A DNA stretch of 41,827 nt from Alphaproteobacteria bacterium (GTDB taxonomy: Bacteria > Pseudomonadota > Alphaproteobacteria > JAQWUY01): the NCBI GenBank assembly GCA_029250225.1, contig JAQWUY010000024.1, positions 1-41,827 on the forward strand, written 5' to 3'. The notes under the pieces were generated by a model that was given only the letters and a program-made list of their open reading frames with translations, was not told where the DNA came from and did not search any database. The position numbers and the translations under genes were made by a program. Of this stretch, positions 12 to 26,162 are shown piece after piece; the stretch's first letter is position 1; each line of letters starts with the position of its first letter.

Positions 12-605
12 TTATTCTTTTCTATCGTCATTTAGCATATGTTTAATGCCACTTCGCAAATAGTTTTGCCCTGTTACGATAGTAAATATTGCTGAAACCC
101 AAAGCAAGAAAACGCCTATATCGCCTGATGGTATATATTTAGGCGAAGCTTCCGAACCGATAATTAAAAAACCAAGTGAGAATAATTGAAATACTGTTTT
201 CCACTTTGCTAATGATGAAACAGGAACAGAAATTTTTATTTCTGCTAAGTATTCTCGTAATCCTGAAACAGTTATTTCTCTTAGTACAATAATAATCCCA
301 GCAAAAGCATTAAAAGCAGATAGTCCACCCATTTGATCGCCCATAATAATTAAAACAATGATAATTGTTGCAACTAATAATTTATCTGCTATCGGGTCAA
401 GAAAACGCCCCAGAGCAGAAGATTGCCCAGTTTTACGAGCAATATAGCCATCAAAGAAATCTGTTAGTCCAGCAAAGCAATATAACGATAGAGCAATCCA
501 TCTAGATAAATCTGTGTTGATTAATAAAAATAATGCAACTAGGGGAATAATTACAATTCTAATAACTGTTAAATAGTTGGGTGATATATGTTCTAACTTA
601 ATCAT
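12..605 (-). CDS. pgsA: CDP-diacylglycerol-glycerol-3-phosphate 3-phosphatidyltransferase
   Basis: Makes phosphatidylglycerol phosphate from CDP-diacylglycerol and glycerol 3-phosphate in the inner membrane, the committed step to phosphatidylglycerol and cardiolipin. The 197-residue protein has the full CDP-alcohol phosphotransferase signature: D49, D52-G53, A56-R57, G66, D70 and D74 with the expected spacing, and several hydrophobic helices around it. The ATG is preceded by an AGAGGAAG ribosome site about 6 nt away. It lies 71 bp downstream of uvrC on the same strand, and uvrC-pgsA is a common alphaproteobacterial pair. Its length is normal for the family. Phosphatidylserine synthase belongs to the same superfamily, but the size and the uvrC neighbour favour PgsA. 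Confidence 0.93.
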   Translation of the reverse strand: MIKLEHISPNYLTVIRIVIIPLVALFLLINTDLSRWIALSLYCFAGLTDFFDGYIARKTGQSSALGRFLDPIADKLLVATIIIVLIIMGDQMGGLSAFNAFAGIIIVLREITVSGLREYLAEIKISVPVSSLAKWKTVFQLFSLGFLIIGSEASPKYIPSGDIGVFLLWVSAIFTIVTGQNYLRSGIKHMLNDDRKE

Positions 606-676: not shown

Positions 677-2512
677 TTAATTATTAAAGTGATTATAAAT
701 TATTTCAGCAGTCTTTCTATTAATTCCCTCTACTTGCATCAAATCCTTTATTCCAGCCCCTGAAATTACAGAAGTTGAACCGAAATATCGCAACAAAGCA
801 TTGCGCTTTACTTTGCCGATTCCAGCAATTTCATCAAGTGGTGATTTTATTAATTCTTTACTACGGCGTTTACGGTGTGCAGTAATTGCAAATCGGTGTG
901 CCTCGTCCCTTATTCGCTCCATAAAATAGTGTAAAGAGCTTGAAACTGGAATATCGGCGGTTCCGGATTTAGTGTAAAAGATTTCGCTTCCATCATTTCG
1001 TTTTTCACCTTTGGCAATAGAAACTATGTTTAAATCAAGACTTAATTCATTTAATACAGATAGTGCTGTATTTAATTGCCCCTTACCGCCATCAACGACG
1101 ATTAAGTCTGGCAAGATTGATTTTTCTTTTATTGCACGATTAAACCTGCGATTAAAAACCTCGCGCATCATTGCATAATCATCACCGGCAATACCTAGAT
1201 TATCTTTTCTTGTCATTTTAGTTTTTATATTCCAACTGCGATAGGATTTTCTATCAAAACCATCTGTTGATACAACTATCATTGCTCCGACTGGGTTTTT
1301 TCCTTGTATATGGCTATTGTCATAAACCTCTATTCGCTTTGGTATTTCTTCTAATTTCAAGACTTGTTTTAGTTGTTTCAATCCTTCGGTATGATTTAAA
1401 ATCGATGATTTATGACGAGAAAGTGCGGATTTTGCATTATCGTAGGCGATATTCATAACGGTAAATCCAAATCCGGCCTTTGGAATAGATATTTTTGTAT
1501 TATATATCTTTTGTAATAATTCTAGGTCTTCAATTTTATCGGATATATATATTTTCTTTACCGGTGATTTGTCTTGATAGAATTGTGGGATAAATTCATT
1601 TAATAACTCTGCTTCGTTTTCCGCCTCAGTCTTTGGAAAAAACAAGGCTGAACCACTAGTTTTTGAATTGCGATAAAACATAACTTGAATACAATAAACA
1701 GAACCGCTTTTACAAACAGCGAATATATCAGCATCGCCAATACCATTGATATGCACACCTTGTGATATTTTTAAATTATTCAAAGATTCTATTCTATTTT
1801 TATAAACCTGTGCTAATTCATAATTTTCATTATTACTTTCACAAATCATTTTATTATTTAATCTGTTTAATAATTCATTATCTCGCCCTGATAAGAACGC
1901 CACAACTTCATTAATATATGAATCCAAATCATCAGTAAGTTTTCCCTCGTCAGGTGCGAATGTACGGAAGAATTGGTGTTTTAATACAGGTAAATATCTT
2001 TGTTTAAAAGATGATTTTTTATTGTTTTTACTTTTATCGCTAAGTTTAAAAACATTGTCTAACATAGCAATTGTATCATTTACTGATTTTGTTGAGGTAA
2101 AGGGTCCGAAATACCTATTGCCTTTTTTGTGTAATCCACGATGTTTTTTTATACAAGGGGAGCCGTCTTGATCAAAAGATATTTCAATTTCTGGATAAGA
2201 TTTATCATCTCTTAACAAAATATTATAATACGGTTTTAATGATTTAATTAAATCAGATTCAAGTAATAATGCTTGGCTTTCAGATGGAGTTTCAACAATT
2301 TCCATTTTATCAGTACGAGCAATCATTCGTTTGATACGGATTGGCTGTTTATCAAATTGAGTATAATTTGTAATTCTTTTTTTGAGATTTTTTGCTTTGC
2401 CTACATATAAAACAGTATCGTTTTTATCAATCATACGATATACACCTGCTTTACCAGAAACAGATTTAACCATATCGCTAATTACTTTTAACCCGTGTTT
2501 TATATCGCTCAT
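677..2512 (-). CDS. uvrC: UvrABC system protein C, excision nuclease subunit
   Basis: Makes the two incisions around bulky DNA lesions in the UvrB-DNA complex. The 611 residues hold an N-terminal GIY-YIG nuclease (GVY at 23-25, YVG at 36-38), a UVR domain near 215-250 that should contact UvrB, an RNase H-like nuclease (YDNSH at 397-401, VVDGGKGQ at 472-479) and a C-terminal helix-hairpin-helix pair (about 555-611). An oddity is that the cysteine motif usual after the GIY-YIG domain is gone. The positions of three family cysteines are V176, T184 and D188, while P175, L177, Q180, R183 and P187 of the same motif remain. The gene starts 11 bp after the glutaredoxin stop and has no clear ribosome site, so coupling to the upstream genes is likely. 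Confidence 0.96.
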   Translation of the reverse strand: MSDIKHGLKVISDMVKSVSGKAGVYRMIDKNDTVLYVGKAKNLKKRITNYTQFDKQPIRIKRMIARTDKMEIVETPSESQALLLESDLIKSLKPYYNILLRDDKSYPEIEISFDQDGSPCIKKHRGLHKKGNRYFGPFTSTKSVNDTIAMLDNVFKLSDKSKNNKKSSFKQRYLPVLKHQFFRTFAPDEGKLTDDLDSYINEVVAFLSGRDNELLNRLNNKMICESNNENYELAQVYKNRIESLNNLKISQGVHINGIGDADIFAVCKSGSVYCIQVMFYRNSKTSGSALFFPKTEAENEAELLNEFIPQFYQDKSPVKKIYISDKIEDLELLQKIYNTKISIPKAGFGFTVMNIAYDNAKSALSRHKSSILNHTEGLKQLKQVLKLEEIPKRIEVYDNSHIQGKNPVGAMIVVSTDGFDRKSYRSWNIKTKMTRKDNLGIAGDDYAMMREVFNRRFNRAIKEKSILPDLIVVDGGKGQLNTALSVLNELSLDLNIVSIAKGEKRNDGSEIFYTKSGTADIPVSSSLHYFMERIRDEAHRFAITAHRKRRSKELIKSPLDEIAGIGKVKRNALLRYFGSTSVISGAGIKDLMQVEGINRKTAEIIYNHFNN

Positions 2513-2770: not shown

Positions 2771-3760
2771 CTAGAATTCCTCGTTAAATGATAATGAACG
2801 ATCCGTTGGGCGTTGATATTCAGTTACTCGTTTTTCAAAGAAGTTCGTAACATTTTGTACATCCAGCGCACGCATAAAATCAAATGGATTTTCTGTATTA
2901 AATACTCGTTCAAATCCAAATAAATCAGCAATTCTATCCGCAACAGCTTCGATATATTCACACATTAAATCTGCATTCATACCGATTAACCCAACAGGAA
3001 GAGCGTCTCTTACAAATTCTTTTTCAAATACAACTGCTTCTTGAACAATGTCTTCAAATTGTTGTTGTGACACATCACCAGTTATTAAATTAGGATCAAG
3101 TAATATTTTATCATCAAGTGTTCCATTATTATATTTTTTTCTTAATGTTTTAAACATTAAGGCCGAAAACGAGAAGTGCATTCCTTCATCTCTTGCAATC
3201 CAATCATTTGATAAGGATAAACCAGGTAATAATCCCCTTTTGCGGAAATAATATATTGCACAGAATGAACCAGCAAAGAATAATCCTTCTACTAAACCGA
3301 AACCAATTAAACGAACTAATAAATTTTGGTCGCCAGATAACCATTTACCAACCCATTCAGCTTTTTTATTAATACAAGGTATATTTTCAATAGCACGGAA
3401 TAATTTATCTTTTTCTTCTTGGTCATCTACATAAGTTTCAATTTGTAATGCATAAGTTTCTGCGTGAATAGATTCATTTAACATTTGCATTGAAATAAAA
3501 CATCTTGCTTCGGGCATTAAAATTTCTTTGTAAAATCTTGATGCAAGATTTTCATTAATCATTGCTTCACTATTAGCGAAAAATGCAAGTATGCGTTGAA
3601 TGAAATGTTTTTCACCGCTGTTAAGTTTTTGTAAATCTCTTATGTCATCTTGAAATGATATCTCTTCTGGCGTCCAAAATGCCTGAACATGAGTCTTATA
3701 CCTATCCCATATCTCTTGATATTGGATTGGAAATATAGAAGTACACCCTTTAGAAATCAT
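2771..3760 (-). CDS. nrdB: Class I ribonucleoside-diphosphate reductase, beta (radical) subunit
   Basis: Houses the dimetal centre and tyrosyl radical that start nucleotide reduction in NrdA. The 329-residue sequence is close in pattern to eukaryote-type R2 (for example VEGLFF, RDEGMH and the NPFDFM stretch). By alignment to remembered mouse R2, the metal ligands are E65, E96, H99, E158, E192 and H195, and the radical tyrosine is Y103. Position 65 is normally Asp in class Ia; Glu there is known from the Mn/Fe class Ic enzyme of Chlamydia, which however has Phe at the tyrosine position. The acidic-aromatic C-terminus should dock into NrdA. The start ATG follows an AGGTAGGA ribosome site. The gene lies 33 bp after nrdA. 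Confidence 0.96.
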   Translation of the reverse strand: MISKGCTSIFPIQYQEIWDRYKTHVQAFWTPEEISFQDDIRDLQKLNSGEKHFIQRILAFFANSEAMINENLASRFYKEILMPEARCFISMQMLNESIHAETYALQIETYVDDQEEKDKLFRAIENIPCINKKAEWVGKWLSGDQNLLVRLIGFGLVEGLFFAGSFCAIYYFRKRGLLPGLSLSNDWIARDEGMHFSFSALMFKTLRKKYNNGTLDDKILLDPNLITGDVSQQQFEDIVQEAVVFEKEFVRDALPVGLIGMNADLMCEYIEAVADRIADLFGFERVFNTENPFDFMRALDVQNVTNFFEKRVTEYQRPTDRSLSFNEEF

Positions 3761-24795: not shown

Positions 24796-25425
24796 TTACA
24801 CTCCTTGTTTTATAAAAGTTTCTAATTCACCATATCCTGTAATTACTCTTTCATAACTTAATTCTAGAAAATCGGCACAAGATTTAGCTTTTTCATTTAA
24901 ATAATTGTTATCTGTTTGTGCAATATAGACAACCTTTTTATAGTGGTTAAATAACATATTTTTCATTTCTGGTATTTTATCAAGTTTATATGCTTTTATA
25001 ATTAAACTATCAAAGTGGCGAACTAAATAATCTGTTAAATAAAATGTTCCTAGTTCTTGATTTTGAATCTTGTTAAAATTATCTGTTCCACTGAAAAATT
25101 CATAGCAATGACTACCTGTAATTAAACTTACATTATATTTACTACATATTTGTTGAATTTGCCCCGCACTTCCGCAATCGGCATAACCAATCATTATTGT
25201 TTTGTATTGTCCTTGATTTTCAATTATTTTATTTTCTAGTAGTCTAGGTATTTTTTCAGGCCTATTATGCAAGATAGCTGGCAAACATTGAATATCCATT
25301 ATATTTTGCATATTATTAATTTCTCGAATATGAATTATTTCTTTTGCTAATGCACCACAAGCAATAATAAGTATTCTTGAATTTTTATCACAATAAGAAA
25401 TATTTTCTGTTAATGTTTTATCCAT
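24796..25425 (-). CDS. DUF1638 family protein, probable partner of the corrinoid protein
   Basis: A 209-residue soluble protein with the pattern of DUF1638: IACGAL (21-26), LHNRP (52-56), GYADCGSAG (80-88) and GSHCYEFF (104-111). The conserved C23, C84, H106 and C107 could bind a metal or thiol ligand; this is inference. The enzyme activity is not known. It lies 56 bp after the corrinoid protein gene and 1 bp before the PF13769 gene. The family occurs beside corrinoid methyltransferase systems in alphaproteobacteria and methanogens. In the split methionine synthase setting it may serve cobalamin reactivation or homocysteine handling. Confidence 0.78.
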   Translation of the reverse strand: MDKTLTENISYCDKNSRILIIACGALAKEIIHIREINNMQNIMDIQCLPAILHNRPEKIPRLLENKIIENQGQYKTIMIGYADCGSAGQIQQICSKYNVSLITGSHCYEFFSGTDNFNKIQNQELGTFYLTDYLVRHFDSLIIKAYKLDKIPEMKNMLFNHYKKVVYIAQTDNNYLNEKAKSCADFLELSYERVITGYGELETFIKQGV

Positions 25426-25481
25426 AATTTAATAATTTTGTAAAGCAGAGGATTTTAAAAACCGCTGTCTATTTTTTAAAG

Positions 25482-26162
25482 TTAAGCAGCGCGCTTTAAC
25501 ATTAATTCTTTCGCTATTTCTACTGAAACCGCAGCATCACGGCAATAAGCATCAGCGCCAACCTCACGACCAAATTCTTCGTTTAATGGAGCACCGCCGA
25601 CAAGAACTATATAATCATCACGAATACCTTGTTCTTTCATTGTATCAATTACAACTTTCATATACGGCATTGTTGTTGTAAGTAATGCTGACATACCAAA
25701 TATTTCTGGTTTGTGTTCTTCCAAAGATTTAAGATACATATCAACATCAACATTAATACCCAAATCAATTACTTCAAAACCAGCACCTTCCATCATCATA
25801 ACAACAAGGTTTTTACCAATATCGTGAATATCTCCTTTTACTGTGCCAATTACAAACTTACCGAGTATTGGAGCGCCAGATTCAGCGAGTAACGGTCGCA
25901 ATATTGCCATTCCTGCTTTCATTGAATTTGCAGACATTAACACCTCAGGTACAAATAAAATACCATCGCGGAAATCAATACCTACAATCCTCATACCTTC
26001 TACTAATGCTTCGGTTAAAACTTTATACGGCGCCCAACCGCGATCTAGTAAAATTTGAGTTCCTTCGGCTATTTCATCGGCAAGACCATCGTATAAATCA
26101 TCCCACATTTGTTCCATTAACTCTTGGTCATTTAAATCATTTAAATCTAGATCATCAGACAT
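25482..26162 (-). CDS. Corrinoid (B12-binding) protein, likely split methionine synthase component
   Basis: Carries cobalamin between a methyl donor enzyme and an acceptor enzyme. The 226 residues comprise an acidic N-terminal tail, a four-helix cap domain (about 20-95; FVPEVLMSANSMKAG) and a Rossmann-like B12 domain with the base-off signature D111-x-H113-D-I-G (in KGDIHDIGKN), SALLTTTM and VGGAPL. H113 should be the lower cobalt ligand. There is no methyltransferase or reactivation domain, so partners must come from other loci. With DUF1638 and PF13769 downstream, it resembles the B12 subunit of a three-part methionine synthase; a methylamine or betaine demethylation corrinoid protein is the main alternative. 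The ribosome site is AGGGGGAA. Confidence 0.87.
   Translation of the reverse strand: MSDDLDLNDLNDQELMEQMWDDLYDGLADEIAEGTQILLDRGWAPYKVLTEALVEGMRIVGIDFRDGILFVPEVLMSANSMKAGMAILRPLLAESGAPILGKFVIGTVKGDIHDIGKNLVVMMMEGAGFEVIDLGINVDVDMYLKSLEEHKPEIFGMSALLTTTMPYMKVVIDTMKEQGIRDDYIVLVGGAPLNEEFGREVGADAYCRDAAVSVEIAKELMLKRAA

Follow-up and report, generated by a model that had tools for sequence, protein, structure and literature searches.

A UvrC protein with all four cysteines of the iron-sulfur cluster site replaced

Introduction

In other UvrC proteins, a small module between the GIY-YIG domain and the UvrB-binding motif is held together by four cysteines and a cluster. The role of Fe-S clusters in DNA-repair enzymes is debated, the candidates being structure, DNA binding, or charge-transport signalling, and mutants of repair enzymes that lose their cluster often lose stability too. 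In nucleotide excision repair, lesion finding and UvrB loading are independent of the UvrC cluster. For UvrC itself, original work cited in PMC9426483 is reported to show that the cluster loop takes part in binding duplex DNA when the cofactor is bound.

UvrC variants in which the cysteine-rich region is deleted have been described from Mycoplasma (Dunin-Horkawicz et al. 2006, PMC1564403), and in the UvrC of Mycoplasmopsis cynos we found the whole module deleted. A "clusterless" MutY is mentioned in PMC11078426. Here we analyze the uvrC gene in a stretch of 41,827 bases (hereafter the window) from a small alphaproteobacterial genome. Its product is a known enzyme in a new form, for which the Mycoplasma deletions and clusterless MutY are partial precedents. 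It has the domain order, the catalytic residues, and the pgsA neighbor (E. coli record) in common with orthodox UvrC such as that of E. coli; however, the orthodox enzyme has four cysteines in its C4 region, whereas the window protein has replaced them all, and its module has gained four residues and lost one. Like the Mycoplasma variants, it is presumably unable to hold a cluster at this site and keeps the other domains, but there the module is deleted from a diverged UvrC in a reduced genome, while here it persists (71 versus 68 residues) with substitutions, and the remainder of this alphaproteobacterial UvrC is well conserved. Clusterless MutY is likewise a repair enzyme of a cluster-bearing family without the four ligand cysteines, although of another family (HhH glycosylase). 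The UvrC-like 3' nuclease Cho is without the RNase H half, which the window protein has (172.9 bits). Two UvrCs on phage-collection contigs (L136 and L480; recorded hosts Enterococcus and Listeria) have likewise lost the fourth cysteine; this part of both is HLGQCLCPY, in which Tyr takes the fourth site, with three ligands kept and an extra cysteine nearby (CLCPY), a partial change compared with the full loss in the window.

Results

The gene and its family

The AT-rich genome comprises 1.197 Mb in 48 contigs and is rated 100% complete; the window is its contig 18 (32% G+C). Its placement in the Alphaproteobacteria follows from the best UvrC matches and from which genes it has. The uvrC frame is uninterrupted, pgsA is next after it (Table 1), and no second UvrC match was found in the genome. 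The product matched the NCBIfam uvrC equivalog model TIGR00194 with 477.9 bits (cut-off 285.45) over residues 14 to 588, and Pfam assigned the domains GIY-YIG, UvrC_RNaseH, UvrC_RNaseH_dom, and HHH_5, the order along the protein being GIY-YIG, UVR, RNase H, HhH. A column check found every GIY-YIG and RNase H catalytic residue present, with each member of the RNase H-like triad in an invariant alignment column. With its full-length TIGR00194 match, GIY-YIG residues, RNase H triad, UVR motif, and C-terminal HhH domain, the protein is, judged from its sequence, a UvrC orthologue that stands outside the cluster-bearing [4Fe-4S] form, the four-cysteine feature being absent.

Table 1. Features of the window, with positions numbered from its first base.
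Feature	Positions	Strand	Evidence or remark
pgsA	12..605		next after uvrC
uvrC, excinuclease ABC subunit C, 611 aa	677..2512	-	TIGR00194 478 bits (cut-off 285) and Pfam domains
Helix-hairpin-helix DNA-binding domain, residues 559-607	692..838	-	PF14520 31.5 bits
RNase H 5'-incision nuclease domain, residues 382-543	884..1369	-	PF08459 172.9 bits; D398, D474, H539 kept
UVR (UvrB-binding) motif, residues 213-246	1775..1876	-	PF02151 20.6 bits, E 0.00035; slightly below the Pfam gathering score of 21.5
Former Cys/cluster module, residues 156-192, all four Cys substituted	1937..2047	-	alignment of 174 alphaproteobacterial UvrCs
D188, fourth Cys column	1949..1951	-	alignment
T184, third Cys column	1961..1963	-	alignment
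V176, second Cys column	1985..1987	-	alignment
N164, first Cys column (hinges on placing of the insertion)	2021..2023	-	alignment
Four-residue insertion, about residues 158-161	2030..2041	-	in 0/174 alphaproteobacteria; 9 residues versus 5 in 174/174
GIY-YIG 3'-incision nuclease domain, residues 22-96	2225..2449	-	PF01541; Y25, Y36, R46, E78, N97 kept (alignment columns)
NrdB	2771..3760	-	resembles eukaryotic R2
MtgC-like corrinoid protein beside DUF1638 protein	24796..26162	-	

Loss of the four cysteines

An earlier note on this DNA had proposed, from the letters alone, that all four cluster cysteines are lost, and alignment with homologues bears this out. The window protein carries N164, V176, T184, and D188 where cysteines stand in 174 of 174 distinct alphaproteobacterial UvrCs and in 94 of 96 distinct UvrC-like proteins from elsewhere, the remaining two being CCCY. 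The alphaproteobacterial sequences were the best-, middle-, and worst-scoring matches from a survey of 385 genomes. They come from at least about 110 family groups, and small genomes are well represented among them. The 96 others came from E. coli, Legionella, Neisseria, Clostridia, Bacteroidota, Fusobacteriota, Actinomycetota, Omnitrophota, and virus- or phage-collection contigs, with many short phage-type UvrCs among them; M. cynos UvrC was left out of this count. Apart from the Mycoplasma deletions and the two CCCY proteins, the loss was thus found in the window UvrC alone rather than widely across unrelated UvrCs.

The assignment of V176, T184, and D188 to the last three sites, framed by the conserved P175, L177, Q180, R183, and P187, holds with the length differences allowed for and is firm, while that of N164 depends on where the insertion directly before the first cysteine site is placed. 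The ungapped alignment and the unchanged distance from FGPF to FLSG claimed in the earlier note did not hold: this span is 71 residues in the window protein versus 68 in 170 of the 174 alphaproteobacteria and 69 in E. coli, with four residues more before P175 (40 versus 36 from FGPF) and one fewer after P187 (19 versus 20 to FLSG). The change is therefore in the main a substitution, as proposed, with a four-residue insertion and a one-residue deletion besides.

Three other origins of the missing motif were rejected. The motif has not moved elsewhere in the protein, whose only cysteines (C120, C224, C267, and C274) do not make it up; the C274 column is Cys in 174 of 271 aligned proteins. A frameshift or sequencing error is contradicted by a three-frame reading, which restores the motif in no frame, and by the in-frame P175, L177, Q180, R183, and P187. 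Horizontal gain from a cluster-free donor does not fit best matches that are alphaproteobacterial UvrCs (45% identity) versus about 34% for gammaproteobacterial ones; the tree gave the window protein no supported sister. One scan of genome contigs returned only a distant Omnitrophota match. The loss of the cluster site is real and specific and apparently very rare.

Change limited to the module

The alteration is restricted to the cluster module. Among 72 near-invariant columns (those with conservation of 95% or more across the first 118 alphaproteobacterial sequences), the window protein departs at 7 of the 13 in the module (R162K, C164N, D166K, C176V, C184T, C188D, and Y196L) versus 2 of the 59 elsewhere (Fisher p = 3.5e-5, or p = 0.015 with the four cysteine columns taken out). 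The module is better conserved than the remaining protein in all 174 alphaproteobacterial UvrCs, and the reverse is true here: the ratio of module identity to that of the rest is 0.745, compared with a minimum of 1.10 and a median of 1.33 among the 174. General fast evolution does not explain the loss, because all four cysteines are retained in a group of UvrCs (L059-L065) whose other parts have diverged further, most of them showing 8-12 departures. The replacement linker, SDKSKNNKKSSFKQRYLPVLKHQFFRTFAPDE, is lysine-rich, with a net charge of +5 versus an alphaproteobacterial mean of +3.9 and inside the alphaproteobacterial range.

Predicted structure

Structure modeling, which the earlier note had suggested as a way to see what fills the cluster site, was done with AlphaFold2 and gave no confident structure there. 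The pLDDT fell below 50 at residues 161-178 and 189-192 (about 39-53 in the blocks covering 161-190), with two more short dips at 100-103 and 252-254, while the other domains were confident. A four-cysteine control UvrC (L139) scored 62-86 across the equivalent stretch, both runs using the same shallow alignment of 28 sequences, in which the window protein is an outlier row. The GIY-YIG and RNase H parts of the model match solved UvrC domains, the RNase H fold matching 2nrt and 8b0q; the module lies outside every solved UvrC chain that was matched. The former cluster module is thus predicted to be loosely folded, a result that is supporting and not decisive.

Iron-sulfur and repair enzymes in the genome

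No convincing radical-SAM or ferredoxin motif was seen in a 344-kb sample (29% of the genome); the whole-genome search returned a normal radical-SAM number, with 6 matches (5 above cut-off) versus 3-8 in 15 small-genome alphaproteobacterial controls. This ordinary count removes a general loss of Fe-S enzymes from consideration and weakens the iron-saving reading.

Endonuclease III (Nth; G000:C14:186789-187436, minus strand, loci L126/L266) lacks the final one of the five cysteines kept in its subfamily. Its C-terminal loop reads ..CSARACYGLECEICTTIYPN, while the four members examined (L267, L268, L269, and L337) have five cysteines in the pattern C-x3-C-x4-C-x2-C-x2-C; the subfamily is also found in three other family groups at 59-66% identity. 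This pattern is unlike the usual C-x6-C-x2-C-x5-C. For MutY, no match above cut-off was found in the whole genome, as in 4 of 17 control alphaproteobacteria. A UDG family 4 homologue (L332; G000:C14:5149-5652, minus strand) scored 104 bits, below the cut-off, and is without the GEAPGxxED and HPxYLLR motifs and the Cys at EI..C, so that it is possibly a decayed or repurposed glycosylase; control alphaproteobacterial UDG4s mostly have Trp at the third cluster cysteine.

Discussion

We propose that the window UvrC most likely still works as a nuclease making both incisions and has given up binding of a [4Fe-4S] cluster, because no ligand set is left, the catalytic residues are kept, the rest of the protein is conserved as in other alphaproteobacteria, and UvrA, UvrB, and Mfd are present. 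The functional, cluster-free enzyme suggested in the earlier note is thus well supported. UvrB was found at 991 bits, UvrA (941 aa) was named from its signature motifs, and Mfd (1151 aa) was named from signature motifs and a match to the UvrB model, so the excision pathway of this genome looks whole. Since neither lesion finding nor the loading of UvrB depends on a UvrC cluster, incision can plausibly proceed. Lesion finding and UvrB loading would remain the task of UvrA, UvrB, and Mfd; the UVR motif would dock UvrC, whose GIY-YIG domain would cut 3' and whose RNase H domain would cut 5'. The part of the cluster module in DNA contact would be taken over by the HhH domain, the RNase H surface, and perhaps the basic linker that replaces the module. 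We infer the absence of metal, the retained activity, and the DNA-binding role of the linker. Given the reported tie between duplex binding and the cluster (work cited in PMC9426483), the loss could lower UvrC activity. The host is the sole genome of its genus, family, and order among those compared, and uvrC may have lost its function recently.

A broader alternative is that the lineage has largely given up Fe-S clusters in DNA repair, so that repair runs without redox-active clusters. UvrC lacks four ligands, Nth one of the subfamily's five cysteines, and the UDG family 4 homologue one cysteine together with its catalytic motifs, and MutY was not found, all of which point this way; however, the Nth loop still has four cysteines and may bind a cluster, MutY is missing from some controls too, control UDG4s mostly retain just two of the family's four cysteines, and the genome overall is not poor in Fe-S enzymes. 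We consider such a retreat rather doubtful. The survey behind it covered UvrC, Nth, MutY, and UDG4, and it is unlikely that in this deep-branching lineage excision repair of both nucleotides and bases lacks every canonical Fe-S cluster. If it did, cluster-less excision repair would be a natural counter-example to models in which damage is found by charge passage between clusters through DNA.

Selection might instead have removed the cluster as an O2-labile liability in an aerobic, light-exposed cell. The restriction of the change to the cluster module fits this, as does the O2 sensitivity of the UvrC cluster reported in the title of Silva et al. 2020 (cited in PMC9266487), but every other sampled alphaproteobacterium keeps the cluster, many of them presumably aerobic, and the window holds nothing that links the change to oxygen or light, making this explanation improbable. 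It is less probable still that uvrC is in early decay, starting with its cysteine module: such decay would fit a loss seen in a single lineage without close relatives in the comparison, yet the 611-aa frame is free of stops, departures outside the module number just 2 in 59, and the catalytic residues and partner genes are intact. The iron-saving change that the earlier note considered, in which the cell gives up clusters so as to need less iron, is very improbable, for although the small AT-rich genome (1.2 Mb) and an NhaD Na+/H+ antiporter gene are compatible with a putative marine, iron-poor habitat, and the origin of the CCCY contigs in a phage collection was also counted in its favor, the radical-SAM count is ordinary, the ETF-quinone oxidoreductase keeps its cluster motif, no other alphaproteobacterium in the sample, with its many small genomes, has lost the UvrC cysteines, and one cluster from a usually low-copy enzyme would save little iron.

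Under the preferred reading, a working cluster-free nuclease, a natural UvrC with four ligands replaced and both active sites kept offers a cluster-free scaffold open to testing. Normal incision of damaged DNA by this protein would mean that the cluster is dispensable for UvrC chemistry and that the residues of the module show possible substitutes; nature has probably already made a cluster-free UvrC useful for asking what the cluster is for.

Some observations lie to the side of this argument. Viral contigs (L146-L208) hold a large set of UvrC-like proteins of about 430 aa with GIY-YIG, four-Cys module, and RNase H, whose aligned members keep all four cysteines. In the NrdB that adjoins the uvrC region, the position of the first metal-ligand Asp is Glu (ANSEAMINENL versus AASDGIVNENL), and the radical tyrosine is kept, on which account a judgment of iron saving from this protein was dropped; in the plasmid collection, the DNA closest to nrdAB comes from Vibrio and Photobacterium. 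Farther along the window, the pairing of an MtgC-like corrinoid protein with a DUF1638 protein suggests methyl transfer by a corrinoid-dependent route, with glycine betaine as one conceivable donor.
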